Shown: in pieces, positions 32,687 to 46,428 of the stretch | How positions within the stretch are numbered: the first letter of the stretch is position 1 | How the letters are laid out: every line of letters starts with the position of its first letter | Assembly (NCBI GenBank): GCA_030694935.1 | Contig: JAUYUA010000070.1 | Span: 1-46,428 of the forward strand | Origin: Lutibacter sp. | GTDB taxonomy: Bacteria; Bacteroidota; Bacteroidia; Flavobacteriales; Flavobacteriaceae | Length of the DNA stretch: 46,428 bases | Direction: 5' to 3' | Notes under the pieces: model-generated | The model's database searches: none | What the model saw: only the letters and a program-made list of their open reading frames with translations | Told to the model about the DNA's origin: nothing | Program-made: the position numbers and the translations under genes

Positions 32687-32760
32687 TCCTCCTTAGCTCA
32701 GTTGGTTAGAGCATCTGACTGTTAATCAGAGGGTCCTTGGTTCGAGCCCAAGAGGAGGAG
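32687..32760 (+). tRNA. tRNA-Asn (anticodon GTT)
   Basis: A full cloverleaf can be drawn. The acceptor stem is TCCTCCT/AGGAGGA, the D arm contains GCTCAGTTGGTTAGAGC, the anticodon stem TCTGA/TCAGA encloses loop CTGTTAA with anticodon GTT, and the T arm is CTTGG-TTCGAGC-CCAAG. The discriminator is G and CCA is not encoded, as is common in Bacteroidota. Its last 29 bases form part of a 33-bp sequence repeated at 36329-36361, so the 3' end has served as an integration site. Confidence 0.97.
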
Positions 32761-32764
32761 CAAA
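32732..32764 (+). repeat. attL-like copy of 33-bp direct repeat (inside tRNA-Asn)
   Basis: Covers the variable loop, T arm, acceptor 3' strand and the first bases after the tRNA. It is identical to 36329-36361 over 33 bases; the bases on both sides differ. Confidence 0.9.
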
Positions 32765-32767
32765 AAA

Positions 32768-32796
32768 AGCGTTACAAGTAATTGTAGCGCTTTTTT
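32768..32796 (+). terminator. Terminator after tRNA-Asn
   Basis: The 10-bp stem AGCGTTACAA/TTGTAGCGCT (one G-T pair) has loop GTAA and a T run. It lies inside the islet, so it arrived with the inserted DNA if the left repeat is the original junction. Confidence 0.9.
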
Positions 32797-32884
32797 GTTA
32801 TTTTTAATTTACTGATTGAATTAGTGCTTCTCAACAATTTCAATTTACTCACTTCCTTTTTATTTGTTTTTGTGTTCGTGAATA

Positions 32885-35800
32885 TCAAGAATTCTCAACA
32901 ATTTCAATTTCTTCTTTTGTTAAACCATATAGTTCATAAACCATTTGGTCTATTGTACTGTCCAATTTTGCTATTTCATTTTGAATTTCATTTAATTTTG
33001 TTTTCTCTTTACGAATATATTGCAACCAATCTACTTCTTCATTTAAGGATAGCTGAACTTTTTGTTTTTTCAATTCCATCAAAAATTGATTAAATTCTAA
33101 ATCTGACCAGTTCTGAAGTTTTTGGGGTAACTTTTTTAAGTTAAATTTATTAGAAATCAAATCTGTAGTTTGTTTAATAACATTAGTTTGTTCTTTAATG
33201 GAATCACATATTTTAACTACTAAATTATTAATTGCTTTTTGTCTGTTAGAATCAGCTACAATAATCATAAGTTTCCCTACAGGATTTGGATAGTACTCAT
33301 ATCTATAATCCATAACTTTTCCATAGCTTTTAAAAAAATAATCAAGCAATTTGGAATTTAAAATACCTAATAAATATTGATAGTCAATTTTATGATTCCA
33401 ACTTTCCTTTAACTGAACTATTGTTGTATCTACACTTGAATAATTTCCACCATTATCAATTGCAAACGTGTTTCGAGGCGCTTTGTATCTACATAATATT
33501 TTAGTGTTGTCAAACAATCTTTTTTCTCTTGCCCATTGCAAATCAAACCATCTAATTTTCCCATTCTTTACCTCTCTTCTGTTTCTTAATTTGTCCTCAA
33601 AAGTTAAAAATCTTTCTTTTAAGTCTGGATATGTATCAATATTTTCTAATTCAGTGGTATAAATGAGCCACCTTTTTTCAACTGGTTCCAGAGAATATCT
33701 TGAAAGGTCACCAACCTTCACCCAATTTTTTATTAAATCGCTATTTATACTAGAAAAATCATTTTGATTAGTGCTAATAAATGCATTGTCACACCCTGTT
33801 TGAATACCCGCTCTACAATCAGCTATTTTATTAAGTTCAACTCCTTTAGATTTCATTTTATCAAGTATGACCTCACCAGACTTTGAATAAAATTCCCAAG
33901 ACTTTTGAGAGTATAATGATTTGTACTTTAAATATATATTAGAAACATTATTTCTATCATAAACAGTTTCAATGACTTTTCCTTCAAATTGGATATATTT
34001 TATAATTAATTCTAAGTCAATATTAGGTATTTTATCACCAATTAAAATACTAGTTTTGGTTCCAACACCTGGAAATATAGTAACATTCTTAAAATCTATT
34101 ATTTCCCTTATTGACAATCTTTCTAACAATGTTTTTCTTAATTTACTTGCATATTCACTTTCTAACCAATATCTAGAAGTTATAAAGCCAATTCTTCCAT
34201 TAGGATTAAGAATATCACTCCCTTTATCAAAAAAATAATATAAAATATCTGATTTTCCTGTGTAAGATTTAGGGTATTTTTTTTCATAGTAAGTTCTATC
34301 TGAACTGGGGTACATTTTAAAGTTTAAGTATGGAGGATTCCCAATTATTACATCAAAACCACCTTTAGCAAATATCTGAGGAAACTCCTGTTGCCAATTA
34401 AAGGCTTTGTCACCTGCTATTTCAACATCATCTATTAGACTGTTTCCGCATTTAATATTATTGTTTAAATCATTCAATTTTCTGTTAGGTTGTGCTGTTC
34501 TAAGCCATAAAGAAAGCTTTGCTATTTCTACACTTTCTTCATTTAAATCCACTCCAAATAAGTTGTTTTCTAAAATACTTTTTTCAACATCACTCAACAC
34601 CATAGCATCACCAAACAATTTGGCTTGTAGTTCATCAATATATCTGTGTTCTGAGATTAGGAAGTCTAAAGCTTGGTTTAAAAATGCACCAGAGCCACAA
34701 GCTGGGTCACAAATAGTTATTTGTAGTAGCCAGTTTCTATAATCAGTTAGCTTGTCAATTAAACCTTTTATGGTTTTCTTTTGTCTTTTTCTGTCAGTAG
34801 CATAATCATCTTCAATTATTTCAAACTCAGCTTTCTTTTCTTCACAAAGTTTACCAACTGTATTTTCAACTATATATTTGGTAATGTATTTAGGAGTGTA
34901 AAAAACACCATCTTTTTTTCTTTTGGTTTTAGATTTGTCAACTTCTTTTCCTTCTAACAATGCTTTTATCTCATCCAATTCATTCAGGGAATTTTCAAAA
35001 ATATGCCCTAAAATATTAACATCAACTTCACTGATAAAATCATAATCAGATAGTTTTAAAGTGTGTTTATATAACAAATCATCATCAATTGTGATGGTGT
35101 CTAAAACTTCATCAGGCAAAAACAAACCTCCATTATAGGCATATACATCATATTGTTTTCCTTTATGCCCTGTGTTTAAATAGCCAAAGTATTTTTTAAA
35201 CCTGTCAAAAAGTGGGGTATAAGCATCTAATTCTTTCAGCTTTTGCCATTGGTCAAGAATTAACCTTACTGAGTTTGGAGGCAATAATTGCCTATCCTCA
35301 GCAAAGAATAAGAATAGAAACCTGTCTAATAACTTTTGAGATTTCTGAAATAATGTTAAAGCATCAAATTGTGGATTTAGAATAACCAAGCTTTGGTGCA
35401 ATTCTCTTTTGAACAAAGAGTAATCATTGTACAATTTTTTGGTAATGGCATCCTCTTGGCTTAAGGATTCTTCTTTTAATTTTTTAGGAATGTTTTTCTC
35501 AATGTTCTCATAAGACAAACACAAGTATAATAATTCAAAATCCTTTTCAGTAAGCGTAAATAAGTTGAATTCAAGATGCTCAATGGCATTGTCTATATAA
35601 AACCTGAGTTTTTCAAAATTAGAAGTAATCACATAAGTACACTCAGGTTGATTATTCTTATACCCAAAAGCCTGAACTTCAATTTTACCTAAGTCAGTTG
35701 TGTTAGTACCTTTTAATTCAATAACAGCTTTTACAACATCAGTAACAATAATAGCACCATCAGCCTTTTTGCTGTCTTTAACATTTTTGTATTCAGTGGT

Positions 35801-36022
35801 AATATTGAAATTAGGAGTAGGGTTTTTAATATAACCCAAGACATTTACAAACAAATCAATCAGAAATTCACCTTGATATTGTTCCTCTTTACTGTTTCTG
35901 ATGTTTTCCTGTATTGTGGGATTGTGAAAATGGTTTTTGAACAGTTCCCATTGTATTGCAATCTTTTCTTTGTTCTGAGTTTTTAGATGTTTCGTAACAA
36001 CTGAACTCTGGAATATCGACAT
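32885..36022 (-). CDS. Type IIG restriction-modification enzyme (Eco57I-like)
   Basis: A single-chain restriction and adenine-N6 methyltransferase enzyme of 1045 residues. The N-terminal nuclease shows a PD-(D/E)xK core with D88 (A-D-G-A-I-I-V), then E102-L-K104. A helical connector follows (about 150-370). The methyltransferase domain opens with D-G-V-F-Y-T-P near 371-377 and contains motif I D-P-A-C-G-S-G-A-F (439-447) and motif IV N-P-P-Y (562-565). The C-terminal half (about 720-1045) would hold the target-recognition domain and coiled-coil segments. No separate methyltransferase or specificity gene is needed or present. It is the only large gene between the two tRNA-Asn repeats, 38 bp downstream of a small putative regulator. 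The recognition site cannot be predicted. Confidence 0.9.
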   Translation of the reverse strand: MSIFQSSVVTKHLKTQNKEKIAIQWELFKNHFHNPTIQENIRNSKEEQYQGEFLIDLFVNVLGYIKNPTPNFNITTEYKNVKDSKKADGAIIVTDVVKAVIELKGTNTTDLGKIEVQAFGYKNNQPECTYVITSNFEKLRFYIDNAIEHLEFNLFTLTEKDFELLYLCLSYENIEKNIPKKLKEESLSQEDAITKKLYNDYSLFKRELHQSLVILNPQFDALTLFQKSQKLLDRFLFLFFAEDRQLLPPNSVRLILDQWQKLKELDAYTPLFDRFKKYFGYLNTGHKGKQYDVYAYNGGLFLPDEVLDTITIDDDLLYKHTLKLSDYDFISEVDVNILGHIFENSLNELDEIKALLEGKEVDKSKTKRKKDGVFYTPKYITKYIVENTVGKLCEEKKAEFEIIEDDYATDRKRQKKTIKGLIDKLTDYRNWLLQITICDPACGSGAFLNQALDFLISEHRYIDELQAKLFGDAMVLSDVEKSILENNLFGVDLNEESVEIAKLSLWLRTAQPNRKLNDLNNNIKCGNSLIDDVEIAGDKAFNWQQEFPQIFAKGGFDVIIGNPPYLNFKMYPSSDRTYYEKKYPKSYTGKSDILYYFFDKGSDILNPNGRIGFITSRYWLESEYASKLRKTLLERLSIREIIDFKNVTIFPGVGTKTSILIGDKIPNIDLELIIKYIQFEGKVIETVYDRNNVSNIYLKYKSLYSQKSWEFYSKSGEVILDKMKSKGVELNKIADCRAGIQTGCDNAFISTNQNDFSSINSDLIKNWVKVGDLSRYSLEPVEKRWLIYTTELENIDTYPDLKERFLTFEDKLRNRREVKNGKIRWFDLQWAREKRLFDNTKILCRYKAPRNTFAIDNGGNYSSVDTTIVQLKESWNHKIDYQYLLGILNSKLLDYFFKSYGKVMDYRYEYYPNPVGKLMIIVADSNRQKAINNLVVKICDSIKEQTNVIKQTTDLISNKFNLKKLPQKLQNWSDLEFNQFLMELKKQKVQLSLNEEVDWLQYIRKEKTKLNEIQNEIAKLDSTIDQMVYELYGLTKEEIEIVENS

Positions 36023-36060
36023 AAGCTATTTTTTTGAAGAGCTAAAGTTAGTGTTTTTTA

Positions 36061-36216
36061 TCAATTATTTTTCTTAATAATTTCTGCAATTACAGATTTA
36101 CTAACTTTAAATTCGGGGTTTTTCAATTCTTCTACAATTTTTTTAGAAGGTAAGCCTTGTTTATGGCATTCTAATGATTTTTTTAATAATGCAGTGTTAC
36201 TTGATTTTGCTGCCAT
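36061..36216 (-). CDS. 51-residue HTH-like small protein upstream of the restriction-modification gene
   Basis: A short open frame on the minus strand beginning ATG (complement of 36214-36216), reading M-A-A-K-S-S-N-T-A-L-L-K-K-S-L-E-C-H and ending I-A-E-I-I-K-K-N-N. It is basic and the segment L-P-S-K-K-I-V-E-E-L with S-K-S-V-I-A-E-I-I resembles a helix-turn-helix of resolvase/Trp-repressor style. It is 38 bp upstream of the restriction-modification gene on the same strand, so it could be a controller protein timing its expression, although it is shorter than classical C proteins. That role is inference from position. Confidence 0.6.
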   Translation of the reverse strand: MAAKSSNTALLKKSLECHKQGLPSKKIVEELKNPEFKVSKSVIAEIIKKNN

Positions 36217-36328
36217 TGTAATTATATATTAAGGTCAAGACAATATAGGTGTTTTTGAAATAAGGCATACAATTCGGGATCATTAAAAAATAGAAATATC
36301 ATAAGACATTGATTTAACTAGGTTTTTT

Positions 36329-36361
36329 GGTCCTTGGTTCGAGCCCAAGAGGAGGAGCAAA
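36329..36361 (+). repeat. attR-like copy of 33-bp direct repeat
   Basis: An exact duplicate of the tRNA-Asn 3' end at 32732-32764, here without the 5' part of a tRNA. It marks the distal boundary of the islet. Confidence 0.9.
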
Positions 36362-36363
36362 CA

Positions 36364-36397
36364 AACGTCTAGAACATTAGTGTTTTAGGCGTTTTTT
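36364..36397 (+). terminator. Terminator next to the distal tRNA-end repeat
   Basis: A 13-bp stem from AACGTCTAGAACA to TGTTTTAGGCGTT (two G-T pairs) with loop TTAG and a T run. It starts 3 bp after the 33-bp repeat, like the terminator at the tRNA itself. It may be the original tRNA-Asn terminator displaced by the insertion. Confidence 0.88.
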
Positions 36398-36497
36398 GTT
36401 TAAAAGTAAGCATAAATTTTATGAGGTGTGATGATTATTGTCAATAATATTTATTTATGCTTACTTTTATTTCAACCAAAAGTTAAATGATCTCTAT

Positions 36498-37094
36498 TTA
36501 AAAATATACTGATAAGCCAACATTACCGGCAAAGTTTCCCTGTTTTTGTACAGAATCAGAATCATCGCTATCCTTTAAGTTAGCCATAGTATATGATAAT
36601 CCAAAATTTAAAGAAACAAACTCATTTATAAAATAAGCAGCTCCACCTCCAAAATTAACAGCAAGACCACTTGCTTCATCTTTGTAAGACTGATAGTCAT
36701 AATCTTCCTCAGAAACAATTGACATAAAACCTGCTCCAACTTGAACTATTGGTCTTAAATTTCCAGAAACAGGAAAATAGTACAATGCTGAAGGTAGAAT
36801 CATTGTTGATTTAATGGTGAATTTAGCTCCTAGGTCTTTTTGAGTAACGGATGTAAAATTAGCAGCCAACCCAATTGCTAAATTATCTACAACAAAATAA
36901 CCGATAGAAGGCAAAAAAGAAAAGGAAGTTTGTGTAATATCACCCAGGGACTGACCGTCATACTCATATTCAATATTGCTGCTAATAAATTGTAAACCAG
37001 TAGCGCCAGAGACTACATATTTACCTTGTTCAGTTTGTGCTAAAATTACATTAGTAGTGACTAATAGAAAAGCTAATAAAAAGAATTTATTCAT
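36498..37094 (-). CDS. Outer-membrane beta-barrel protein
   Basis: A 198-residue small outer-membrane barrel of the OmpX/porin-like type. The signal peptide M-N-K-F-F-L-L-A-F-L-L-V-T-T-N-V-I-L-A is followed by Q-T. Amphipathic strands alternate with Gly/Asn/Asp-rich turns (L-R-P-I-V-Q-V-G-A-G-F, A-V-N-F-G-G-G-A-A-Y-F, F-V-S-L-N-F-G-L-S-Y-T), and the chain ends V-G-L-S-V-Y-F with the terminal Phe needed for barrel assembly. Its 5' leader (37118-37175) is homologous to that of the next upstream gene, so both may be under the same control. No specific role is known. Confidence 0.8.
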   Translation of the reverse strand: MNKFFLLAFLLVTTNVILAQTEQGKYVVSGATGLQFISSNIEYEYDGQSLGDITQTSFSFLPSIGYFVVDNLAIGLAANFTSVTQKDLGAKFTIKSTMILPSALYYFPVSGNLRPIVQVGAGFMSIVSEEDYDYQSYKDEASGLAVNFGGGAAYFINEFVSLNFGLSYTMANLKDSDDSDSVQKQGNFAGNVGLSVYF

Positions 37095-37194: not shown

Positions 37195-37551
37195 TTACTT
37201 ACGTGTGTAAATAAATGAATCACCATTCTGACTTAAAGTAAGTTTGTTCCCAGAAATAGCATAGGAGAAAGAAGTTTTTACGCTCATCATATCAATTTCT
37301 AATAAATTACCGGATGTAGTCCAACCAAAAACATAATTATCTATTTCTTCCGGATCAGTATCATATTTATAAGTAATAATTATAACTCCTGTTTGATCTG
37401 ATTTAAAGGTGAGAAGTTCGGTATACACCTCATTCACATCAATTTCTTTCATCTCCCACGACCCAATTAATGGGTCTTGATTATCATCATCCTTATTACA
37501 AGAAGTAAGTGCCATTGCAAAAACAAATAATAGAATTCCAATTTTTTTCAT
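37195..37551 (-). CDS. Lipocalin-like lipoprotein
   Basis: A 118-residue exported lipoprotein. The signal peptide ends in a lipobox (A-L-T-S-C18), followed by an Asp/Asn-rich tether. The remainder, starting L-I-G-S-W-E-M, resembles the small lipocalin-like proteins common in Bacteroidota (G-S-W near the start, alternating strands, L-T-L-S near the end). It is anchored to a membrane by lipidation; the ligand is unknown. It is transcribed in the same direction as the outer-membrane protein gene, but each has its own leader, so separate transcripts are likely. Confidence 0.78.
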   Translation of the reverse strand: MKKIGILLFVFAMALTSCNKDDDNQDPLIGSWEMKEIDVNEVYTELLTFKSDQTGVIIITYKYDTDPEEIDNYVFGWTTSGNLLEIDMMSVKTSFSYAISGNKLTLSQNGDSFIYTRK

Positions 37552-38295: not shown

Positions 38296-38640
38296 ATGAA
38301 GTTAGGAAATAAGTTGGAAGTTGTATATAAAGGGAATATTAAGGCTGGAGAGCTTTGGGTAGATAATGATGGTTATCATTTTGAATATGATAATGCCTTT
38401 ATTGAAAATGTAACCACGCGACCGATTTCTGTTAATATGCCTAAGAGCCAAAAAACATATCATTCTAAAGAATTATTTCACTATTTCAAATCCATTCTTA
38501 GCGAAGGCGAGAATCGAGAACGAATTTGTAAAGCATTAAGAATCGACCCAAGTGATGACTGGAGTTTATTGGTATTAACCTGTCAATACGATACAATCGG
38601 TGCAATAACAGTAAAAAACATTGAAAATGGCACAGTGTAA
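38296..38640 (+). CDS. hipS: HipS-like protein (separate HipA N-subdomain)
   Basis: A 114-residue protein corresponding to the N-terminal subdomain-1 of HipA. It shows L-E-V-V-Y-K-G-N-I-K-A-G-E-L-W, a Y-H-F-E-Y-D segment, R-P-I-S-V-N-M-P and a downstream L-F-H-Y-F-K-S-I-L-S-E-G-E-N-R. In ordinary HipA this region is fused to the kinase; here it is a separate gene, as in the HipBST system of enteropathogenic E. coli, where HipS is the antitoxin that blocks HipT. It starts 3 bp after hipB and overlaps the hipT start by 14 bp, which favours stoichiometric production. The antitoxin role is inferred from this parallel. Confidence 0.82.
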   Translation: MKLGNKLEVVYKGNIKAGELWVDNDGYHFEYDNAFIENVTTRPISVNMPKSQKTYHSKELFHYFKSILSEGENRERICKALRIDPSDDWSLLVLTCQYDTIGAITVKNIENGTV

Positions 38641-39589
38641 CGGATGTCTTAAAAATAATATAAGTGGATTTTGCTCATCTTGTGAGAAAATTTTATTCAA
38701 CCGATCAAAGGTTAGTCCTCAACTCAAATTTAATTGGGAGGATATTTCAAAAAGAATTGATGGTCAACCTATGGGATTTAGTATCTCAGGAGTTCAACGA
38801 AAAGGATTTATCGGGAAACCACGAGGAATTGAGTTAGTTCCAAAAATGGGTTTAGATGAAAAATCTCAATATATTGTAAAACCATTATTGTCAAGATTTA
38901 ACATTCCTAACCAATCGCCTGCAAATGAACACGTAACTATGCAAATAGCCAAACAGGTTTTTGGTATCAAAATAGCTGAATGTGCATTTATGAACTTTGC
39001 CAATGGTACTCCGGCATATATCACTAGACGCTTTGATTACAATGCTGATGGTGAAAAATTAAATCAGGAAGATTTTGCATCTGTGCTTAAAGCAGCTGAT
39101 AAATATAAATCAAAAACCTATCAAGATGTTGGAGAATGGCTTAGCCCATTAAATAGAATTGACTTGCTTCGTATTCTTATATTCAATTTCCTTACAGGGA
39201 ACGGTGATGTTCATTTAAAAAACATTTCGCTATTGGAAACAGCGGATGGTGATATGATGTTGTCGCCAGCATATGATTTAATGAATACCAAGATTCATCT
39301 TACGGATAATTTATTGGCGTTAAATCTATTTGAAGAACTTGAACAAACTAGTTTAGCCTTAGGGAAAATATATAAATATACGAGTAAGGATTTTATTGAA
39401 TTTGGGAAACGTTTGAAAATTAAAGAATCTATTATCACTATAATTATCGACACATTTAATAAAAAAGAAAATGAGATATTAGCTATGGTTGATAAGTCAT
39501 TTTTATCTGACGATGCCAAAAATATATACAAAGAAAATGTAGTCGAAAATTATAAATTATTTAGACAATCTACACAAATTGCAAACTAA
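38627..39589 (+). CDS. hipT: HipT-like serine/threonine kinase toxin with N-terminal zinc-finger-like motif
   Basis: A 320-residue HipA-family kinase lacking the N-subdomain. The ATG 38627 is preferred over TTG 38621. The gly-rich loop carries the S52-I-S54 motif (F-S-I-S-G-V-Q-R-K), matching the S-I-S autophosphorylation motif known for HipT. K85 (Y-I-V-K-P) is the likely ATP lysine. The catalytic loop is G-N-G-D194-V-H196-L-K-N199 and the metal-binding Asp is D217 (A-Y-D-L-M-N). An N-terminal C4-x2-C7 ... C16-x2-C19 pair looks zinc-binding; similar cysteines occur in other Bacteroidota HipA proteins. HipA and HipT phosphorylate aminoacyl-tRNA synthetases (GltX, TrpS); the target here is unknown. 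Confidence 0.87.
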   Translation: MAQCNGCLKNNISGFCSSCEKILFNRSKVSPQLKFNWEDISKRIDGQPMGFSISGVQRKGFIGKPRGIELVPKMGLDEKSQYIVKPLLSRFNIPNQSPANEHVTMQIAKQVFGIKIAECAFMNFANGTPAYITRRFDYNADGEKLNQEDFASVLKAADKYKSKTYQDVGEWLSPLNRIDLLRILIFNFLTGNGDVHLKNISLLETADGDMMLSPAYDLMNTKIHLTDNLLALNLFEELEQTSLALGKIYKYTSKDFIEFGKRLKIKESIITIIIDTFNKKENEILAMVDKSFLSDDAKNIYKENVVENYKLFRQSTQIAN

Positions 39590-39767
39590 TTGAACACAAA
39601 TAATTCATCAAAAAACTAAATACAACAAAGAGCACTTTAAAACGCAAATTTACGAAATGTCGGTTATCTTTTAGAATGATAAAAAGTTAACATCTTAATT
39701 TTCATATAATTGTGTATTGAATTATTGAATTCCAGCTGCAGCTTCTGTCAAGAAGGAGAGCAAAATG

Positions 39768-39798
39768 AGTCTTAACATTAATTTGTTAAAGCTTTTTT
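39768..39798 (+). terminator. Terminator hairpin next to tRNA-end-like sequence C
   Basis: AGTCTTAACA pairs with TGTTAAAGCT (one mismatch, one G-T) and is followed by a T run. It begins 3 bp after a GAGCAAAA sequence, the same arrangement as at the tRNA-Asn and at 36364. Confidence 0.65.
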
Positions 39799-40246: not shown

Positions 40247-40771
40247 ATGAAAGCAATAAAATTTATAATACTCGGAATAGGATTAATTTTTGCAAGCGAA
40301 GCGCAGGCTCAAATATCTGTAAATTTAAATGTTGGTACGCCGCCGCAATGGGGCCCGTCAGGTTATTCTAACGTTCGTTATTATTATTTGCCTGATGTAG
40401 AAGCTTATTATGATGTTCACAATTCCAATTTTATTTATATTTCAGGAAACTCTTGGGTTCGTCATTCTTATCTTCCAAGACACTATAGAAATTATGATTT
40501 ATATAATGGCTATAAAGTGGTATTGACAAATTATCGCGGTAATTGGCCTCATGCTTATTTTAAACAACACAAGGTTAAATACGCAAAGGGATATAAAGGA
40601 AAATATCAAAAATCAATTGGCAACAAAGGAGGAAACGGAAACTATAAGCCAAAAGGCAACGGAAACGGAAACTATAAGCCAAAAGGCAACGGTAACGGAA
40701 ACTATAAGTCAAAAAGCAACGGTAACGGAAACCAAAAGTCGAATGGTAATGGCAATGGTAAAAAACATTAG
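40247..40771 (+). CDS. Secreted protein with C-terminal Gly/Asn/Lys-rich repeats
   Basis: A 174-residue exported protein. The signal peptide M-K-A-I-K-F-I-I-L-G-I-G-L-I-F-A-S-E-A-Q-A ends before Q-I-S-V-N. The middle (about 35-115) is rich in Tyr, His and Trp (Y-Y-Y-L-P-D-V-E-A-Y-Y-D, N-S-W-V-R-H, Y-R-G-N-W-P-H-A-Y-F), a pattern seen in hypothetical periplasmic Bacteroidota proteins. The C-terminus is four copies of a 10-residue G-N-G-N-Y-K-P-K-G-N repeat encoded at a 30-bp period (40631-40750), giving a strongly basic, disordered tail. Function is not known. It is followed by tRNA-like sequence and a bidirectional terminator. Confidence 0.75.
   Translation: MKAIKFIILGIGLIFASEAQAQISVNLNVGTPPQWGPSGYSNVRYYYLPDVEAYYDVHNSNFIYISGNSWVRHSYLPRHYRNYDLYNGYKVVLTNYRGNWPHAYFKQHKVKYAKGYKGKYQKSIGNKGGNGNYKPKGNGNGNYKPKGNGNGNYKSKSNGNGNQKSNGNGNGKKH
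40631..40750 (+). repeat. 30-bp coding repeat, four copies
   Basis: Units start at 40631, 40661, 40691 and 40721. The first two are identical except at their opening bases, and divergence increases towards the 3' end. Slippage would add or remove 10 residues without shifting the frame. Confidence 0.8.
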
Positions 40772-40800: not shown

Positions 40801-40855
40801 TCCTTATTGTAATTTTACTCAAAGTTGGTTGCAACTTCGAGTAATAGGGGGAGCA
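40801..40855 (+). other. Decayed tRNA-like sequence
   Basis: It starts TCCTTATT and ends AGGGGGAGCA, comparable to the TCCTCCT ... AGGAGGAGCA ends of tRNA-Asn. Inside are a CTCA-AA-GTTGGTT stretch like the tRNA-Asn D arm and a TTCGAG like its T loop. There is no anticodon arm. It can form a hairpin at 40817-40842. It may be a shrunken tRNA-Asn copy or chance similarity. Confidence 0.35.
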
Positions 40856-40860
40856 AAACA

Positions 40861-40890
40861 AAGCCATTCAAGAAATTGAGTGGCTTTTTT
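40861..40890. terminator. Bidirectional terminator
   Basis: An 11-bp stem AAGCCATTCAA/TTGAGTGGCTT (one G-T) with loop GAAA and a T run. It serves the secreted-protein gene on the plus strand and, from its complement, the acidic lipoprotein gene on the minus strand. Confidence 0.88.
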
Positions 40891-40942
40891 GTTATTTTTT
40901 TTATTTGCTGATTGGCATTCAATTAATTTCTGTTTTTTTATT

Positions 40943-41998
40943 TTAATTACAGTGTTTTTCAAGTTCAAATCTATTGTCTTCAAAACGTAAATCAATTTCA
41001 TTGTCATCTTCAATTTCATATAACCTCCAATCAAAAGAAAAATCAGCTAAAGTTTCAAAATTAATTTTTAATAAGATTTCGTTATCAGATAAGTCAACTT
41101 TCCAGGTTCCAAAAATTTCATTACCATTGTTAATAGCTTTCAAAACGCCTTCATTCAAAAAGAATAATTTATAGTTTGTGTATTTAGCTGTTTGCTCTAC
41201 ATCATTTATTTCAAGTTTAGAAACGGTCCAAGAACATGTTTTTAGTAATTGGTTTATTTGCTCTTGAGAACAATCGGCACAATCATCATCATCGTAATCA
41301 TTATCGTCATCTTCGTCGCACATATCTTTAACCTCTTCGATTACATTTTCCAGCATATCCATATTTTCTATGTTCCTTTCTGTACCATCATAAAGGATTA
41401 CTGAAATTGGAAAATTAACCACCACGATATCATTATCATCTATATCGTCAATAAATTTGTAAAACTGCTCATCATTTTCAATTTTCACAGTATTGGTCAA
41501 CTGATTTTCTGAATTATACATTGACAAGCTTATTGGATATACAAAATCTAAGCATTCAATATCATCATCCATTTCATTTTCACCTTCGCAATCCTCAATT
41601 AAAGCATCCAGTTCATCCTGATTATTGATGGTGATTTTTGAATAATCACTTAAAATAATTTCAATAGGAAAAAATATTTCTAAGTGATCTAAATCGTCGT
41701 CAAACTCATCAAAAATAGCTTCTATTGCCTCAAAATCCTCTTCTGAATTTACGTTAACTATGAATCCATTTACACTTACTGTCACTGGAAGTTGAACTTG
41801 TAAACAACTTGCATTGTCAATAATATTATCTTTTGACCCATCATTTGTAACAGTACGCTTCACTAAATTGGTTACACTGGCGTTCACTTTTAAAGTTTCG
41901 CTTTGAGCGGGTTCTCTAATTTGTGTGATTTCTGTCTGACAAGAAATAAAGACCAGGAAAAGAAAACTCAGAAATAATAAATTGCAGAGGTGTTTCAT
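40943..41998 (-). CDS. Acidic lipoprotein with four internal repeats and lipocalin-like C-terminus
   Basis: A 351-residue lipoprotein when started at the ATG ending at 41998; a start 12 codons earlier would precede the signal peptide needlessly. The lipobox is F-I-S-C after M-K-H-L-C-N-L-L-F-L-S-F-L. Residues about 50-230 contain four related blocks, each with L/F/Y-P-hydrophobic strand, then a second strand and an acidic helix (F-P-I-E-I-I-L ... D-E-L-D-A-L-I; Y-P-I-S-L-S-M ... E-Q-F-Y-K-F-I; F-P-I-S-V-I-L ... M-L-E-N-V-I). A poly-Asp/Cys stretch follows, then a domain resembling lipocalin-like proteins (C-S-W-T-V-S-K-L ... G-T-W-K-V). Related proteins occur in Flavobacteriaceae; the role is unknown, with calcium binding a possibility given the acidity. 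Confidence 0.75.
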   Translation of the reverse strand: MKHLCNLLFLSFLFLVFISCQTEITQIREPAQSETLKVNASVTNLVKRTVTNDGSKDNIIDNASCLQVQLPVTVSVNGFIVNVNSEEDFEAIEAIFDEFDDDLDHLEIFFPIEIILSDYSKITINNQDELDALIEDCEGENEMDDDIECLDFVYPISLSMYNSENQLTNTVKIENDEQFYKFIDDIDDNDIVVVNFPISVILYDGTERNIENMDMLENVIEEVKDMCDEDDDNDYDDDDCADCSQEQINQLLKTCSWTVSKLEINDVEQTAKYTNYKLFFLNEGVLKAINNGNEIFGTWKVDLSDNEILLKINFETLADFSFDWRLYEIEDDNEIDLRFEDNRFELEKHCN

Positions 41999-42203
41999 AT
42001 TTGACAAATTTAAAATAAATTGTAAATTAACCAAGAGGTTTTAGGGGTTTATTGCAATATAACTTCTTAGTTATTATAATATTGAAAACCTCTTGGAATT
42101 TTTACACAATCATGTATTTAACAGTTTATGATTAATAAACCCTACTTATTTTTTAAAATAATTATATTTACATCCAAATTAATCTGATATTTTCATAAAA
42201 TTT

Positions 42204-42719
42204 ATGAATCACACTATGGATGAAGATTACTGCAATGAAAAAAAATTCAGTAAATTTTTTTTAGATAATTCAGCCTTGTTGCGCAATTACATGTACTACA
42301 AATGCGGTGATAAAGAATTTGCGAATGACATTGTGCAAGATGCTTTTTTAAAATTTTGGGACAATTGCAAAAAAGTAATTCCGGGAAAAGCAAAATCTTT
42401 TTTATTTACCATTGCGAACAATTTATTTTTAAATGAATACAATAAAAGCAATGTGGCATTAACTTTTAAAAGCATCCCACAAAAGAAACACACACATGAA
42501 ACTCCGGAGTTTTTATTAGAAGAAAAAGAGTTTGGCGAGAAATTACAAAAAGCACTTTCAAATTTATCTGAAGCGCAACGCACCACTTTTTTAATGAATA
42601 GAATAGAGGGTAAAAAATACAAAGAAATTGCTAAAATATTAGAAATTTCAGTTAAAGCAGTTGAAAAGAGAATACACAATGCTTTGATAAGTTTAAGACA
42701 AGAAATTGAAAATATTTGA
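42204..42719 (+). CDS. ECF sigma factor, FecI type
   Basis: A 171-residue extracytoplasmic-function sigma factor. Region 2 covers about residues 15-85 with D-I-V-Q-D-A-F-L-K-F-W-D-N. Region 4 covers about 110-168 with A-L-S-N-L-S-E-A-Q-R-T-T-F and Y-K-E-I-A-K-I-L-E-I-S-V-K-A-V-E-K-R-I. It directs RNA polymerase to genes controlled by the FecR-like protein encoded 60 bp downstream. The next gene after that is a TonB-dependent receptor with an STN domain, so the trio is a cell-surface signalling system of the FecI-FecR-FecA kind. Either ATG 42204 or 42216 may be the start. Confidence 0.92.
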   Translation: MNHTMDEDYCNEKKFSKFFLDNSALLRNYMYYKCGDKEFANDIVQDAFLKFWDNCKKVIPGKAKSFLFTIANNLFLNEYNKSNVALTFKSIPQKKHTHETPEFLLEEKEFGEKLQKALSNLSEAQRTTFLMNRIEGKKYKEIAKILEISVKAVEKRIHNALISLRQEIENI

Positions 42720-42779
42720 TAAACAAAGTAGGGGAAACCTTTATTTAATTGTTATATAATTGTTATGTGAAATTTACGT

Positions 42780-43685
42780 ATGGAAAAAAACTACTTTTTA
42801 GCAAAATGGCTTAATGGTGAAATAACTGAAGCAACACTTAAGGAACATGTAAGTGAGGAGGAAATACGCGCTTATAAAAAAATAATTTCAGCCACAGACC
42901 AACTAGAAGCGCCAAGCTATAATGCCCAAGAAGCTTTAGAAAAAATAAAGAAATTACATTCCGAAAAATCCGTTAAGAAATTAAATTTCATTAATTATTT
43001 TTACAGAATTGCAGCCGTATTTGCGGTGCTAATTGCTTCGTATTATTTTATTTCAACAAAAAACACAAGCTACAAAACTAATTTAGCAGAAAAAATTATT
43101 TTTGAACTGCCCGATCAATCTGAAGTGCATTTAAATGCTGATTCAAAAATTACTTTTAAAGCCAAAAACTGGGAAAATAGCAGAACCTTATATTTAAAAG
43201 GCGAAGCCTATTTTAGCGTTAAAAAAGGAACTGAATTTACGGTAATTTCAAATATGGGTTCTGTACAGGTTTTAGGCACAAAATTTAATGTTATTGAAAG
43301 AGACCGATTTTTTGAAGTGAACTGCTATGAAGGTTTGGTAAGTGTAACTTCTAAAACTGAAACGGTTAAAGTTCCTGCAGGAACTTCCTATAAAATACTC
43401 GATGAAGTTTCTAAATTTTCAAACAACACGAATGAAACAATGCCCGCTTGGCTTCAAAACAACAGTTCGTTTAAAAGTATGCCATATAAATATGTTGTGA
43501 AAGAATTGGAAAGGCAATACAATATTTCCATTGAATATGATGTTAAGTACGAAAACAATTTATTTACGGGAAGTTTTATTCATTCAAATTTAGAATTGGC
43601 TTTAGAAGCAATCAGCATTCCGTTAAACCTGAAATACGAAATTATCAGTGATAAAAAAGTGCATTTAAAACTAGATGAAAATTAA
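42780..43685 (+). CDS. FecR-family anti-sigma factor
   Basis: A 301-residue inner-membrane regulator. The cytoplasmic N-terminus (1-75) would hold the sigma factor. One membrane span covers about 77-93 (A-A-V-F-A-V-L-I-A-S-Y-Y-F-I). The periplasmic FecR domain (about 105-200) has L-P-D-Q-S-E-V-H-L-N-A-D-S, L-K-G-E-A-Y-F-S-V and F-T-V-I-S-N-M-G-S-V-Q-V-L-G-T-K-F-N-V. The C-terminal part (about 230-301), with the A-L-E-A-I-S-I-P-L-N-L-K-Y-E-I segment, is the STN-contacting DUF4974-type domain found in Bacteroidota. Its last 11 bp overlap the start of the receptor gene. Confidence 0.92.
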   Translation: MEKNYFLAKWLNGEITEATLKEHVSEEEIRAYKKIISATDQLEAPSYNAQEALEKIKKLHSEKSVKKLNFINYFYRIAAVFAVLIASYYFISTKNTSYKTNLAEKIIFELPDQSEVHLNADSKITFKAKNWENSRTLYLKGEAYFSVKKGTEFTVISNMGSVQVLGTKFNVIERDRFFEVNCYEGLVSVTSKTETVKVPAGTSYKILDEVSKFSNNTNETMPAWLQNNSSFKSMPYKYVVKELERQYNISIEYDVKYENNLFTGSFIHSNLELALEAISIPLNLKYEIISDKKVHLKLDEN

Positions 43686-46233
43686 CAAACTAAAGCCTTT
43701 ATTAATTTTTACATGTCTTCTTTTTTCAATTTTTAGTTTTTCCCAAAATTTAACCAAGGAAAGTAAATTGCTTTCTGAAATTTTAGTTGAAATAGAAAAA
43801 GAATATGAAGTTACCTTTACCTATGCCGACAAAGTAATTGAAACCATAAAAATTACACCGCCTTCAAAAAAAATAACGCTTCCTGAAATTATTGAATATT
43901 TAAAGGTAAAAACCGGCTTGGCATTTACCTTTTCAACGGCAACAAATATTTTAATAAGCAAAAAAAAGAGTATTGATATTATTTGCGGCTATCTGGTTGA
44001 CATAAATTCAAAAGAATTCCTTAAAGGGGTTCATATTGTAGTTTTAAAATCCAACATACATACTACCTCAAATAGTGCAGGCTATTTTAGCATTCCAAAA
44101 ATTGATGAAAATCAAATAATTCAAATTAGTTATATGGGTTATCCAACCATGTATTTAAATGCTGCTGATTTTTTAACCAATAATTTATGTTTAACAATCT
44201 CATTAACTGAAAAATTGGAAGAATTGAACGAAGTTATTTTGCAAAATTATTTAACATCAGGAATTTCAATAAAAACCGATAACTCGTTTGTAATTTCCCC
44301 TCAAGAATTTGGTATTTTACCAGGATTGATTGAGCCTGATGTTTTACATCAAATACAAGCTTTACCAGGTATCAGCAGTGTGGATGAAACTGTTTCTGAT
44401 ATTAATATTAGAGGGGGGACAAACGACCAAAATCTACTGCTTTGGGACGGCATAAAAATGTATCATTCAGGACATTTTTTTGGATTAATTTCTGCGTTTA
44501 ATCCGTATTTAACAGAAAGTGTCACCGTAATTAAAAACGGCACTAATTCCCAATATAATGATGGTGTTTCGGGAACAATTGCCATAGAATCAATAGATGA
44601 AATTAAAGAGAAACCATTTGGCGGTGCCGGAATTAATTCACTTAGTGCAGATGCCTATGCGCAAATGTCAATTTCAAAAAAAGTATCGATTCAAGTATCC
44701 GGAAGACGCGCTATTACTGATTTGTGGCGCTCATTTACTTACGAACAATATTTCAAACGCGCATTTCAAAATTCTAAAGTTTCAACTTTTTTAGTTGCAG
44801 ATAACAAGTATGTTGAATCCAGTTCAAACTTTTATTTTTATGATTACAGCATTAAATTATTATACAATATCAATGATAACCACCAATTGCGATTCAGCCT
44901 TTTAAACGTTGAAAATGAACTAGCCTACAAAGAAGCGATCGATTTAGAGACAGAAACTGCCGAGGATTACAAAACAAGTAGTTTGGAGCAAAAGAATATA
45001 GGTTTTGGACTAAAATTAACCGACAACTGGAGCTCAAAATTTAAAACAGTTTTTAATGCTTATTATACAAAATACAACCTAAATTCCTCAAATCATTCGC
45101 TTTTTACTGAACAGCTTTTGCAACAGAACAATGAAGTTTTAGAAACAGGCTTGAAATTAAATGCACACTATTCAATTTCAGAGAAATTGCAATTGTTAGG
45201 CGGCTATCACTTTTATGAGTTAGGAATCACAAATACTGAAGTTGTAAACGTGCCAGATTACAGCCAAATTATTAAAAGAGTCCTAAGAAATCATTCACTT
45301 CATAGTGAAGTTAGTTACATTTCGGCCAGCAAAAAAACGTTTGTAAATGCTGGGTTAAGGTTGAATTATATTGGAATTTTTAATTTATTTATTATTGAAC
45401 CCAGAATACAGGCATTGCATAAGATAAATAAGCATCTTTCATTTAAAATTTCCGGTGAATTTAAAAGTCAGAATGCGACTCAAATTATTGATTTACAAGA
45501 GGATTTTTTAGGGGTTGAAAAAAGACGTTGGGTTTTAGCAGATAATAAGGCCATCCCTGTCATAAAAAGCAAACAAGCTTCTGCTGGATTTAATTTCCAC
45601 AAACAATATGTTTTTTTTGATATAGAGGGTTTTTACAAGTATGTAGATGGTATTACCACTGCAAATCAAGGGTTTCAAAATCAAAATCAGTACATAAAAA
45701 CTTCTGGTAGCTACACGGTAAAAGGAATTGAATTTTTAATTAACAGAAAAACCGATGCTTTTAGTACTTGGTTGGGGTATGCTTATAATCACAATACCTA
45801 TAATTTTTTAGCGTTAACCCCAAGTGAATTTCCTAATAATTTGGATATCAGACACAGCATTTCATTTGGAAACACCTACACTTATAAAAAGTTTAATTTT
45901 GCTGTTGGATTGTTATGGCGAAATGGGAAACCTTACACTAAACCTCAAGAAAGTAGCCCAATTACTATTGACAGGCTTAATTCTTATATAAATTACAACT
46001 CCCCAAACAGTGATAATTTACCCAATTATTATAGAGTCGATTTTTCATCGACCTATAAATTTAACCTTAACAAAAAAGTTGACGCAATGGCCGGTGTTTC
46101 AATTTTAAACATTTTTAACGCTAAAAATATTTTAAATACTTACCACAAAATAACTCCTGAGGGTGCCATAAACAACATTAATAATGTTGCTTTAGGCACA
46201 ACTCCCAATTTCACTTTTAGAGTTTCTTTTTAA
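43675..46233 (+). CDS. TonB-dependent outer-membrane receptor with STN and carboxypeptidase-regulatory-like domains
   Basis: An 852-residue outer-membrane transporter of the signalling type. Residues 1-24 are the signal peptide. About 27-97 is the STN (secretin/TonB short N-terminal) domain that contacts FecR. About 102-180 is a carboxypeptidase-D regulatory-like domain (I-C-G-Y-L-V-D-I ... S-A-G-Y-F-S-I-P). About 205-310 is the plug with D-I-N-I-R-G-G-T-N-D-Q-N-L-L-L-W-D-G. The rest is the barrel, ending T-F-R-V-S-F. It is translationally coupled to the anti-sigma factor. The substrate is unknown; no surface lipoprotein (SusD or DUF4249 type) lies within the remaining 195 bp. Confidence 0.92.
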   Translation: MKINKLKPLLIFTCLLFSIFSFSQNLTKESKLLSEILVEIEKEYEVTFTYADKVIETIKITPPSKKITLPEIIEYLKVKTGLAFTFSTATNILISKKKSIDIICGYLVDINSKEFLKGVHIVVLKSNIHTTSNSAGYFSIPKIDENQIIQISYMGYPTMYLNAADFLTNNLCLTISLTEKLEELNEVILQNYLTSGISIKTDNSFVISPQEFGILPGLIEPDVLHQIQALPGISSVDETVSDINIRGGTNDQNLLLWDGIKMYHSGHFFGLISAFNPYLTESVTVIKNGTNSQYNDGVSGTIAIESIDEIKEKPFGGAGINSLSADAYAQMSISKKVSIQVSGRRAITDLWRSFTYEQYFKRAFQNSKVSTFLVADNKYVESSSNFYFYDYSIKLLYNINDNHQLRFSLLNVENELAYKEAIDLETETAEDYKTSSLEQKNIGFGLKLTDNWSSKFKTVFNAYYTKYNLNSSNHSLFTEQLLQQNNEVLETGLKLNAHYSISEKLQLLGGYHFYELGITNTEVVNVPDYSQIIKRVLRNHSLHSEVSYISASKKTFVNAGLRLNYIGIFNLFIIEPRIQALHKINKHLSFKISGEFKSQNATQIIDLQEDFLGVEKRRWVLADNKAIPVIKSKQASAGFNFHKQYVFFDIEGFYKYVDGITTANQGFQNQNQYIKTSGSYTVKGIEFLINRKTDAFSTWLGYAYNHNTYNFLALTPSEFPNNLDIRHSISFGNTYTYKKFNFAVGLLWRNGKPYTKPQESSPITIDRLNSYINYNSPNSDNLPNYYRVDFSSTYKFNLNKKVDAMAGVSILNIFNAKNILNTYHKITPEGAINNINNVALGTTPNFTFRVSF

Positions 46234-46297
46234 AAATTAAAATTATTAATGGGGTATTTTTATTTCATTATTGTCCGGTTAAATTTTTCAAAACAAA

Positions 46298-46394
46298 CAG
46301 GTCGCCCCGATGGGGCTTTAAACCTGACTTTTTTCAATATTCTACAAACATTTCGCTCCTACGGAGCTATTTTTAGTCCCATCGGGACGACCTG
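46298..46394. repeat. Large REP-like inverted repeat with inner hairpin
   Basis: The arms CAGGTCGCCCCGATGGGG (46298-46315) and TCCCATCGGGACGACCTG (46377-46394) pair with two mismatches. The enclosed segment contains a hairpin GCTCC-TAC-GGAGC (46355-46367). It has no coding potential and resembles dispersed palindromic elements mobilised by REP-associated transposases. The far right end of the window is otherwise empty. Confidence 0.75.
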
Positions 46395-46428
46395 CTTGTA
46401 GAAAATAGATTTTCATTAAAAACAAGCC

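Follow-up and report, generated by a model that had tools for sequence, protein, structure and literature searches.

The window analyzed here, a 46,428-nucleotide stretch of Lutibacter sp. DNA, carries a tRNA-Asn(GTT) gene on the forward strand at positions 32687..32761 (ARAGORN), which serves as an integration target; in the relatives examined, this tRNA lies downstream of sucA. The final 30 bases of the gene plus AAA make up att1 (32732..32764, forward strand), the left copy of an exact 33-bp direct repeat whose second copy, att2, occupies 36329..36361 on the same strand and is missing the first 45 bases of the tRNA gene. The repeat is embedded in a longer match of 37 bp that contains a single mismatch. 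The sequence confirms the original prediction of identical copies with differing flanks. Searching the 3.22-Mb assembly for 30 bases of the repeat, with up to three mismatches allowed, gave exactly these two places, and the reversed control pattern has zero matches there. We conclude that the repeat is the boundary of a mobile element. Terminator hairpins follow both copies on the forward strand, at 32765..32797 after att1 (A type) and at 36363..36398 after att2. The att1 hairpin failed as a marker of native sequence: it cannot tell which side is native, because identical hairpin types recur behind many att sites.

Between the repeats lie two long open reading frames, an enzyme gene and the tail of an AAA_25 gene, and no integrase of the islet's own. 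The enzyme gene (32885..36022, reverse strand) is an intact frame of 1045 codons, and the PADLOC type IIG model PDLC03609 covers residues 1–1044 of its product. Pfam matches to Eco57I (9.4e-50), TaqI_C (1.3e-9), and MmeI_Mtase are above cut-off, whereas those to MmeI_N and MmeI_hel fall just under it. The protein is thus a full-length single polypeptide joining a methyltransferase to a fused specificity domain, as in type IIG restriction–modification enzymes, and its matches suggest a likeness to the MmeI/Eco57I type. It is under purifying selection: against the copy in another Lutibacter genome (G021), which is 86% identical, dN/dS is 0.075 over 599 codons. In all likelihood it is still functional, restricting foreign DNA while protecting its own. 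Beside the gene, a 19-bp duplicate of its 3′ end at 32828..32846 (other copy, 32892–32910) is possibly the scar of the left junction.

The second frame (36061..36216, reverse strand) had been listed in the original prediction as a 51-codon gene enclosed with the type IIG gene. The type IIG gene stands, but protein alignment identifies the shorter frame as the C-terminal remnant of a larger gene, the AAA_25 ATPase gene of a parent element. It is 64% identical to residues 335–384 of the 385-aa AAA_25 protein of G021 and 60% identical to residues 320–369 of the 371-aa protein of G016. The full-length ATPase has ∼380 aa and is intact in G021, where it adjoins the restriction gene in the order type IIG (reverse), AAA_25 (reverse), att. 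The DNA leading up to att2 (36213..36328, forward strand) forms a conserved right end, which we call type 1 and which was recognized from matches in relatives. Positions 36213–36335 match G021 at 86% in the same position, the final 90 bp match G023 at 81%, and the final 77 bp match G026 at 82%. Within it, the CAATTCGG..ATCATTAAAAAA motif (36268–36298) is found in 4 of 38 Lutibacter genomes, always adjoining a tRNA repeat.

These observations bear on whether any insertion took place. Against the second repeat being a remnant of a duplicated tRNA or a chance match, it is preceded by a right end common to three other genomes and is without the 5′ part of the tRNA; moreover, nothing of this stretch is present at the site in G009, and the repeat's two places in the genome stand against zero control matches. 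We rejected this reading on the strength of the conserved right end and the two-place pattern, and assign it scarcely any probability.

The parent element can be approached through its integrases. Among the matches listed, seven congeners have an integrase that shares 67% identity or more with the G016 enzyme, and in six of them the gene lies 200–250 bp after tRNA-Asn; G019 has the integrase at a contig end with no tRNA-Asn visible nearby. The genome search for tyrosine recombinases that had been proposed found no such integrase, and no intact member of the tRNA-Asn clade, in this 97%-complete assembly, where the nearest candidates are a fragment at 41%, interrupted by six in-frame stops, and a relative at 22%. 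Left-arm motifs mark six of seven tRNA-Asn left ends having that integrase clade, are absent from G024 although the integrase is present, and are also absent from this islet and from G023. A complete version of the element occurs in Aequorivita sp. LH_M31, where 20.5 kb at tRNA-Asp, integrase included, run in the order tRNA-Asp, integrase, AAA_24, DUF3871, AAA_25, GIY-YIG, type IIG, AAA_25, tRNA-Asp 3′ copy. Its integrase is 52% identical to that of G016 and its type IIG enzyme shows 53% identity. Across Flavobacteriaceae, parent-family integrases adjoin five different tRNAs (Asn, Asp, Arg, Met, and Val). An integrase near the tRNA together with a far copy of the tRNA 3′ end was seen in Aequorivita (tRNA-Asp), G036 (tRNA-Met), and G020 (tRNA-Asn); within the stretches examined, no far copy was found for Polaribacter (tRNA-Arg) or G029 (tRNA-Val). 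No Lutibacter contig holds a whole parent with the type IIG enzyme, and the G021 assembly has the tRNA and integrase on one contig and the enzyme on another. An automatic scan of 72 AAA_25 loci, with flanks of up to 10 kb, found a tRNA at 15, a copied tRNA end at 3, and an integrase relative at 17; we think that many of these flanks stop short of the element's end, as checked in Aequorivita and Polaribacter. Pfam scans, which covered 12 of the 20 open reading frames of the G016 island and 10 of the 25 of the Aequorivita element, detected no relaxase. A PHROGs scan of nine proteins from the G016 island and of the AAA_25 protein from G021 gave integrase, Sak4-like, primase/helicase, and endonuclease as named functions, and the AAA_25 protein has no relative among the viral contigs searched.

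Gene order also weighs on how the enzyme gene came to lie beside tRNA-Asn. Homologous or illegitimate recombination could have placed it there independently of the adjoining right end: the type IIG family is common, with some match in 33 of 60 genomes searched, other contexts included, and the 19-bp duplication suggests an illegitimate left junction. However, the order enzyme, AAA_25, tRNA copy is kept in G021 and, at a different tRNA, in Aequorivita, that is, in two genera, and we regard independent placement as very improbable.

The kept right end, the truncated AAA_25 gene, and the complete Aequorivita version therefore lead us to a reading that we consider very likely: a larger tRNA-targeting integrative element has decayed here, losing its own integrase, and the islet is what remains of its right end. 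The original prediction had offered such a remnant as one of its options, and it is the one that is well supported, since an integrase-bearing relative has the same gene order. In the parent, a tyrosine recombinase with the domains Arm-DNA-bind_5, Phage_int_SAM_5, and Phage_integrase would have adjoined the tRNA gene, and the tRNA 3′ end would have been repeated at the far side. The parent's backbone would have comprised AAA_24 (Sak4-like), DUF3871, AAA_25 (primase/helicase-like), and GIY-YIG, followed by a cargo slot and then a second AAA_25 gene adjoining attR. This genome would have lost the integrase and backbone genes along with most of the second AAA_25 gene, keeping the two att repeats, the right end, and the type IIG gene as cargo. 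We infer the order of loss, present-day recombination, and enzyme activity. It may instead be that a neighboring element left by excision, because the A-type hairpin after att1 has a near-identical counterpart behind the right att copy in G026.

Comparison of the locus among Lutibacter genomes, as the original prediction had suggested, revealed a near-empty site and other cargo. G009, whose sucA is the most similar of those at the compared loci (93.5% DNA identity), has about 370 bp, with left-arm motifs inside, where this genome has 8.15 kb. In 8 of 33 genomes examined, a single conserved gene (cluster c2) comes directly after tRNA-Asn, an arrangement that resembles an unoccupied site. Elsewhere the cargo at tRNA-Asn includes a type I restriction–modification system (G023), BREX genes (G017), a type II methyltransferase (G020), and SusCD-type genes (G031). 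The idea of an exchangeable defense slot thus agrees with the varied restriction–modification and BREX cargo and the near-empty nearest relative, but the site also takes non-defense cargo. Allowing at most 3 mismatches in 24, a second tRNA-end copy lies on the tRNA's own contig at 3 of 33 loci (the window, G023, and G020), a count limited by contigs that often end shortly past the tRNA; two further copies lie on separate contigs (G021 and G026).

The bracketed 3.6-kb islet of the original prediction is real, but it heads a tandem series of units, with att-like sites beyond it. Module 2 encodes, on the reverse strand, an outer-membrane beta-barrel protein (36498..37094; Pfam OMP_b-brl) and a lipocalin-like protein (37195..37551; Lipocalin_4) and, on the forward strand, HipA N-terminal (38296–38640; Couple_hipA) and C-terminal (38621–39589; HipA_C) frames. 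It is followed by att3 (39732..39761, forward), a degenerate att-like site with a type 3 right end and only ∼13 bases in common with the tRNA end, and by a D-type terminator (39769–39792), a type that immediately follows tRNA-Asn in G009, G023, and G002. Module 3 consists of a 174-aa frame without Pfam match (40247..40771, forward) and is followed by att4 (40831..40854, forward), an att-like site with a type 2 right end, and a B-type terminator (40862–40884). With up to three mismatches, the att3 30-mer occurs in 5 and the att4 24-mer in 10 of 38 genomes. Synteny with G009 resumes at 40915..46401, at 96–99% amino acid identity, with a 363-aa gene, a sigma factor, FecR, TonB-type genes, and a short open reading frame. 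The interval from tRNA-Asn to the gene at 40943 contains a stack of at least three modules. G005 also has module 3, 90% identical and at a different array position, where it adjoins the tRNA; the same genome has a 106-bp att-to-att unit. A scan of 472,578 bases for tRNA-like ends followed by a terminator found 47 sites in the tRNA orientation, 31 at tRNA-Asn and 16 others; as controls, the reverse strand of this sequence gave 3 and a set of other loci totaling 515,538 bases gave 2. Two of the 16 (in G036 and G026) fit the consensus poorly and may have arisen by chance, and the scan missed three known sites (the tRNA-Asn of G016 and G034 and the right copy of G023).

The islet could be an active minimal cassette, a 3.6-kb satellite that excises and integrates at tRNA-Asn with a related integrase acting in trans, as originally proposed. 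Its 33-bp copies are identical though functional constraint falls on the tRNA copy alone, its right end is conserved and shared with a G023 unit that has restriction–modification cargo and no integrase match, and module 3 occupies two array positions. Against this, the AAA_25 gene is truncated, and the 3.6-kb unit was never found twice among the genomes searched. We demoted the trans-mobilized satellite to an alternative that we judge distinctly unlikely because the left-arm motifs are missing, here as in G023, and no intact cognate integrase was found in the assembly. Also rather unlikely is that the tRNA-Asn locus of Lutibacter serves as an integron-like platform for integrase-less cargo modules. 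The few types of right end (types 1–3) and left end (terminator types A–E) would then be interchangeable, the stacked modules would all face the same way and reach at least 47 kb from the tRNA, and tyrosine integrases passing on other elements would add, shuffle, or remove them. If so, the population would gain an exchangeable set of defense and other cassettes.

The decayed-end reading gives a lone restriction system at a tRNA gene a concrete history, as cargo remaining after island decay, and points to one tRNA locus in one genus where leftovers accumulate and differ among species. Related bacteria carry different, often antiviral, cargo at this row of leftovers. If visiting integrases still move the modules, the locus would offer a simple, testable model for phage-defense swapping without full mobile elements. 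Among the matches listed, literature on DUF3871 with integrase or tRNA described no such element, and that on Lutibacter islands held nothing specific.

The nearest existing concepts are CIMEs and additive tRNA islands. A Streptococcus salivarius survey (PMC7563491) and an IME review (PMC5704250) use the term CIME for an ICE or IME that has decayed, with reported sizes of 1.2–13 kb, and microCIMEs of 130–220 bp are reported. By sequence, the islet retains attL and attR and has lost its recombination genes, as CIMEs have; its left-arm motifs are missing. Tandem stacking and a size within the range are further likenesses, and the 106-bp unit of G005 is close in size to microCIMEs. Since the backbone and integrase are gone and the att sites and cargo are kept, we would expect the islet to behave as a CIME-like module, without self-movement and with its core kept, beside which another tRNA-Asn element could integrate. 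Unlike the CIMEs so defined, it has relatives with no relaxase among their tested proteins, and its target is tRNA-Asn in a Bacteroidota genus. The additive flexible genomic islands of Methylophilaceae, as portrayed in PMC10872708, have recurring 20-bp 3′-end repeats at tRNA-Lys; they share with this locus repeated tRNA 3′ ends and variable content at one site, but most of their proteins are of unknown function, whereas the Lutibacter locus has an integrase clade, recurring right ends, and restriction–modification and BREX cargo tied to the repeats. Tycheposons of Prochlorococcus and others, treated in PMC10872708, are likewise tRNA-bounded and carry a tyrosine recombinase and cargo; among the features compared, the parent element differs from them in its backbone of AAA_24, DUF3871, AAA_25, and GIY-YIG.

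The islet is enclosed by a perfect 33-bp direct repeat, with copies at 32732-32764 and 36329-36361 as originally predicted, and the left copy forms the 3′ terminus of a tRNA-Asn(GTT) gene (32687-32761). In the assembly of this genome (G000; 3,224,884 bases in 107 contigs, 97% complete), the two islet copies are the only matches to a 30-base piece of the repeat when as many as three mismatches are allowed, and its reversed control has zero matches. The contents are likewise as foreseen, namely a gene for a 1045-aa type IIG restriction-methyltransferase and a 51-codon ORF. Across 33 loci, where many contigs stop shortly past the tRNA, a second tRNA-end copy lies on the same contig as the tRNA in three, and two further copies lie on separate contigs. 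The stretch that terminates in the second copy (36213-36335) is 86% identical to the equivalent position in the congeneric Lutibacter genome G021; its last 90 bases are 81% identical to G023 and its last 77 bases 82% identical to G026. Of 38 congeneric genomes, four contain a 31-base motif from this right end (≤3 mismatches), in every case next to the tRNA-Asn repeat. The second repeat is the end of a mobile element. A simple tRNA duplication, which the original prediction had named as a source that would speak against insertion, is opposed by the conserved right end and by the distribution of the motif.

The 51-codon ORF has no match in Pfam or PADLOC. Over 50 residues it shares 64% identity with the C-terminal end (335-384) of the 385-aa AAA_25 protein encoded in G021, and it shares 60% with the C-terminus of a 371-aa protein in G016; by this homology, it is a fragment of an AAA_25 gene. 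The AAA_25 protein occurs in 4 of 38 genomes: complete or almost complete in G016 and G021, as the 51-codon fragment here, and as a weak match (23%) in G036. In G021, the gene order is type IIG enzyme, AAA_25, repeat, and the enzyme is 86% identical to the window's over residues 1-602, the point where the contig stops. The AAA_25 tail has a dN/dS of 0.37 for G000-G021, 0.12 for G000-G016 and 0.10 for the intact G016-G021 pair; since these values come from ∼50 codons with partly near-saturated synonymous sites, relaxed constraint in G000 is only suggested. The enzyme gene, with a dN/dS of 0.075 over 599 codons, is strongly constrained. Enzyme relatives in five congeners (G001, G013, G016, G029, G031) and on contig C7 of G000 are 82-89% identical up to about residue 553-568, presumably near the NPPY motif, and then diverge sharply, which suggests that specificity regions may have been exchanged between type IIG paralogues.

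An AAA_25 alignment scan of named genomes yielded 72 Bacteroidota loci. In Aequorivita sp. LH_M31, an AAA_25 gene adjoins a type IIG gene 53% identical to the window's, within a ∼20.5-kb element bounded by tRNA-Asp and a second tRNA-Asp 3′-end copy. The order is tRNA-Asp, integrase, AAA_24, DUF3871, AAA_25, GIY-YIG, a 149-aa gene, type IIG, AAA_25, tRNA-Asp 3′ copy; the integrase lies 1.6 kb past the tRNA and is 52% identical to that of G016. Integrase relatives adjoin tRNA-Arg in Polaribacter, tRNA-Met in G036 and tRNA-Val in G029; a second tRNA-Met copy is present in G036, and in the stretches read none was found for tRNA-Arg in Polaribacter or for tRNA-Val in G029. An integrase with 67% or higher identity to the G016 enzyme is carried by seven Lutibacter genomes among those listed, G016 included. 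Six of these seven integrases start 200-250 bp after tRNA-Asn (one, in G001, has one in-frame stop); the exception is G019, whose contig stops ∼500 bases upstream of the integrase. In G021, the beginning of a related integrase follows tRNA-Asn at the contig end. Among the genes scanned with Pfam (12 of 20 G016-island ORFs, 10 of 25 Aequorivita-element ORFs) and PHROGs (nine G016-island proteins and the G021 AAA_25 protein), the functions recognised were those of an integrase, a Sak4-like protein, a primase/helicase-like protein and an endonuclease; no gene for a relaxase, a capsid protein or a terminase was found.

The search for a matching recombinase proposed for G000 returned five Pfam integrase matches, at most distant relatives, and no intact member of the tRNA-Asn clade in the assembly; the best matches to this clade are a 105-residue fragment at 41% identity, interrupted by six stops, and a relative at 22%. 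At six of seven left ends with a clade integrase (G001, G016, G020, G021, G026, G031), tRNA-Asn is followed by two left-arm motifs, and G024 has such an integrase without them. They are also present in a scar in G009 and absent from the window and from G023; G005 falls in between, and the motifs are missing from G015 and G017, whose integrases are distant. A 19-bp duplicate of the enzyme gene 3′ end, between the tRNA and the enzyme gene, is a possible junction scar.

The proposed comparison of related loci revealed a near-empty site in G009, which of all the loci compared has the most similar partial sucA sequence (93.5%) and so counts as the closest relative. Its neighbouring genes are the same (96-99% amino acid identity for those continuing the window), and ∼370 bases with an element left-end scar replace the window's 8.15 kb. 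One conserved gene directly follows tRNA-Asn in 8 of 33 genomes read. The idea of an exchangeable defence slot holds in part. In G023, a 12.2-kb unit between tRNA-Asn and a right end like the islet's (type 1) has no integrase match, starts with a 45-codon GIY-YIG remnant and carries a GmrSD-type gene together with type I R-M genes (HsdM, HsdS, HsdR). The G020 locus combines an integrase with a helicase-like gene and a type II methyltransferase that has cytosine-methylase-like matches, and in G017 a distantly related integrase accompanies BrxA, BrxC and PglX genes. However, G031 has SusCD-type genes at tRNA-Asn, so the cargo is not defence alone. The BREX genes of G017 lie downstream of tRNA-Asn (contig C15, 81510-109175, partly in locus L117); just past the tRNA, its 5′ half is repeated in inverted orientation, and a 51-base tRNA-Asn 3′ copy (96%) ∼27.5 kb away is probably the far end of the BREX island.

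Downstream of the islet, a tandem array continues with two more att-like sites, one with a type 3 right end (39732-39761) and one with a type 2 right end (40831-40854). Both finish in a purine-rich, tRNA-like GAGC, and the terminator hairpin behind each belongs to a type seen elsewhere immediately after tRNA-Asn. These right ends recur: 10 of 38 genomes have type 2 and 5 have type 3 (≤3 mismatches), and the reversed-pattern controls gave no matches. Eight genomes have att-like sites on the tRNA-Asn contig (G000, G001, G005, G009, G020, G031, G032, G035), all co-oriented with the tRNA and up to 47 kb from it in G020 (20 and 34 kb in G032); further type 2/3 copies occur on contigs without the tRNA (G000, G001, G004, G021, G029, G034). 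A scan for tRNA-like ends with hairpins found 47 forward sites, comprising 31 tRNA-Asn genes and 16 others, two with a weak consensus, and missed three known sites; as controls, the reverse strand gave 3 sites and 515,538 bases from other loci gave 2. Right-end and terminator types occur in many different combinations, as expected if recombination occurs at a shared core. Module 3, a downstream unit (ORF 40247-40771), is ∼90% identical over 845 bases to the unit directly after the tRNA in G005. A bold reading would have such modules actively shuffled.

Several other features accompany the array. In G031 (L122, L274, L275), G035 (L111) and G005 (L107), the repeat extends rightward from the tRNA end through the terminator (∼45 bases), whereas the window's runs leftward, suggesting that a second kind of att core exists. 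Contig C82 of G000 (L276, L277) holds genes that in G009 come after the window's last genes, and is the probable continuation of this locus; it has two additional type 2 att-like sites. A 17-bp perfect inverted repeat with a 35-bp spacer occupies 36401-36469, and 36390-36429 recurs in G001 (L106 twice, L131) and on contig C40 of G000 (L140) as a REP-like dispersed repeat. The HipA C-terminal ORF at 38621-39589 (322 aa vs. 437 aa in G023 and G005) may be truncated or have a late start.

We regard the repeat, the conserved end, the truncated gene, the complete relative, the near-empty site and the array as established. To account for the islet, an element of the AAA_25/integrase family would have integrated into tRNA-Asn and then lost its integrase, backbone and most of AAA_25 while keeping its cargo; alternatively, a neighbouring integrase-bearing element may have departed by excision. 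Under either route, the outcome fits the published idea of CIMEs (cis-mobilizable elements), which are described as keeping att sites, losing recombination genes and moving only after accretion with another element (PMC7563491, PMC5704250). Because ICE or IME parentage is not established, we claim likeness to CIMEs rather than formal membership. Recurring tRNA-end repeats likewise mark islands in Methylophilaceae (PMC10872708). It is thus well supported that the islet is a variant of an already known kind.
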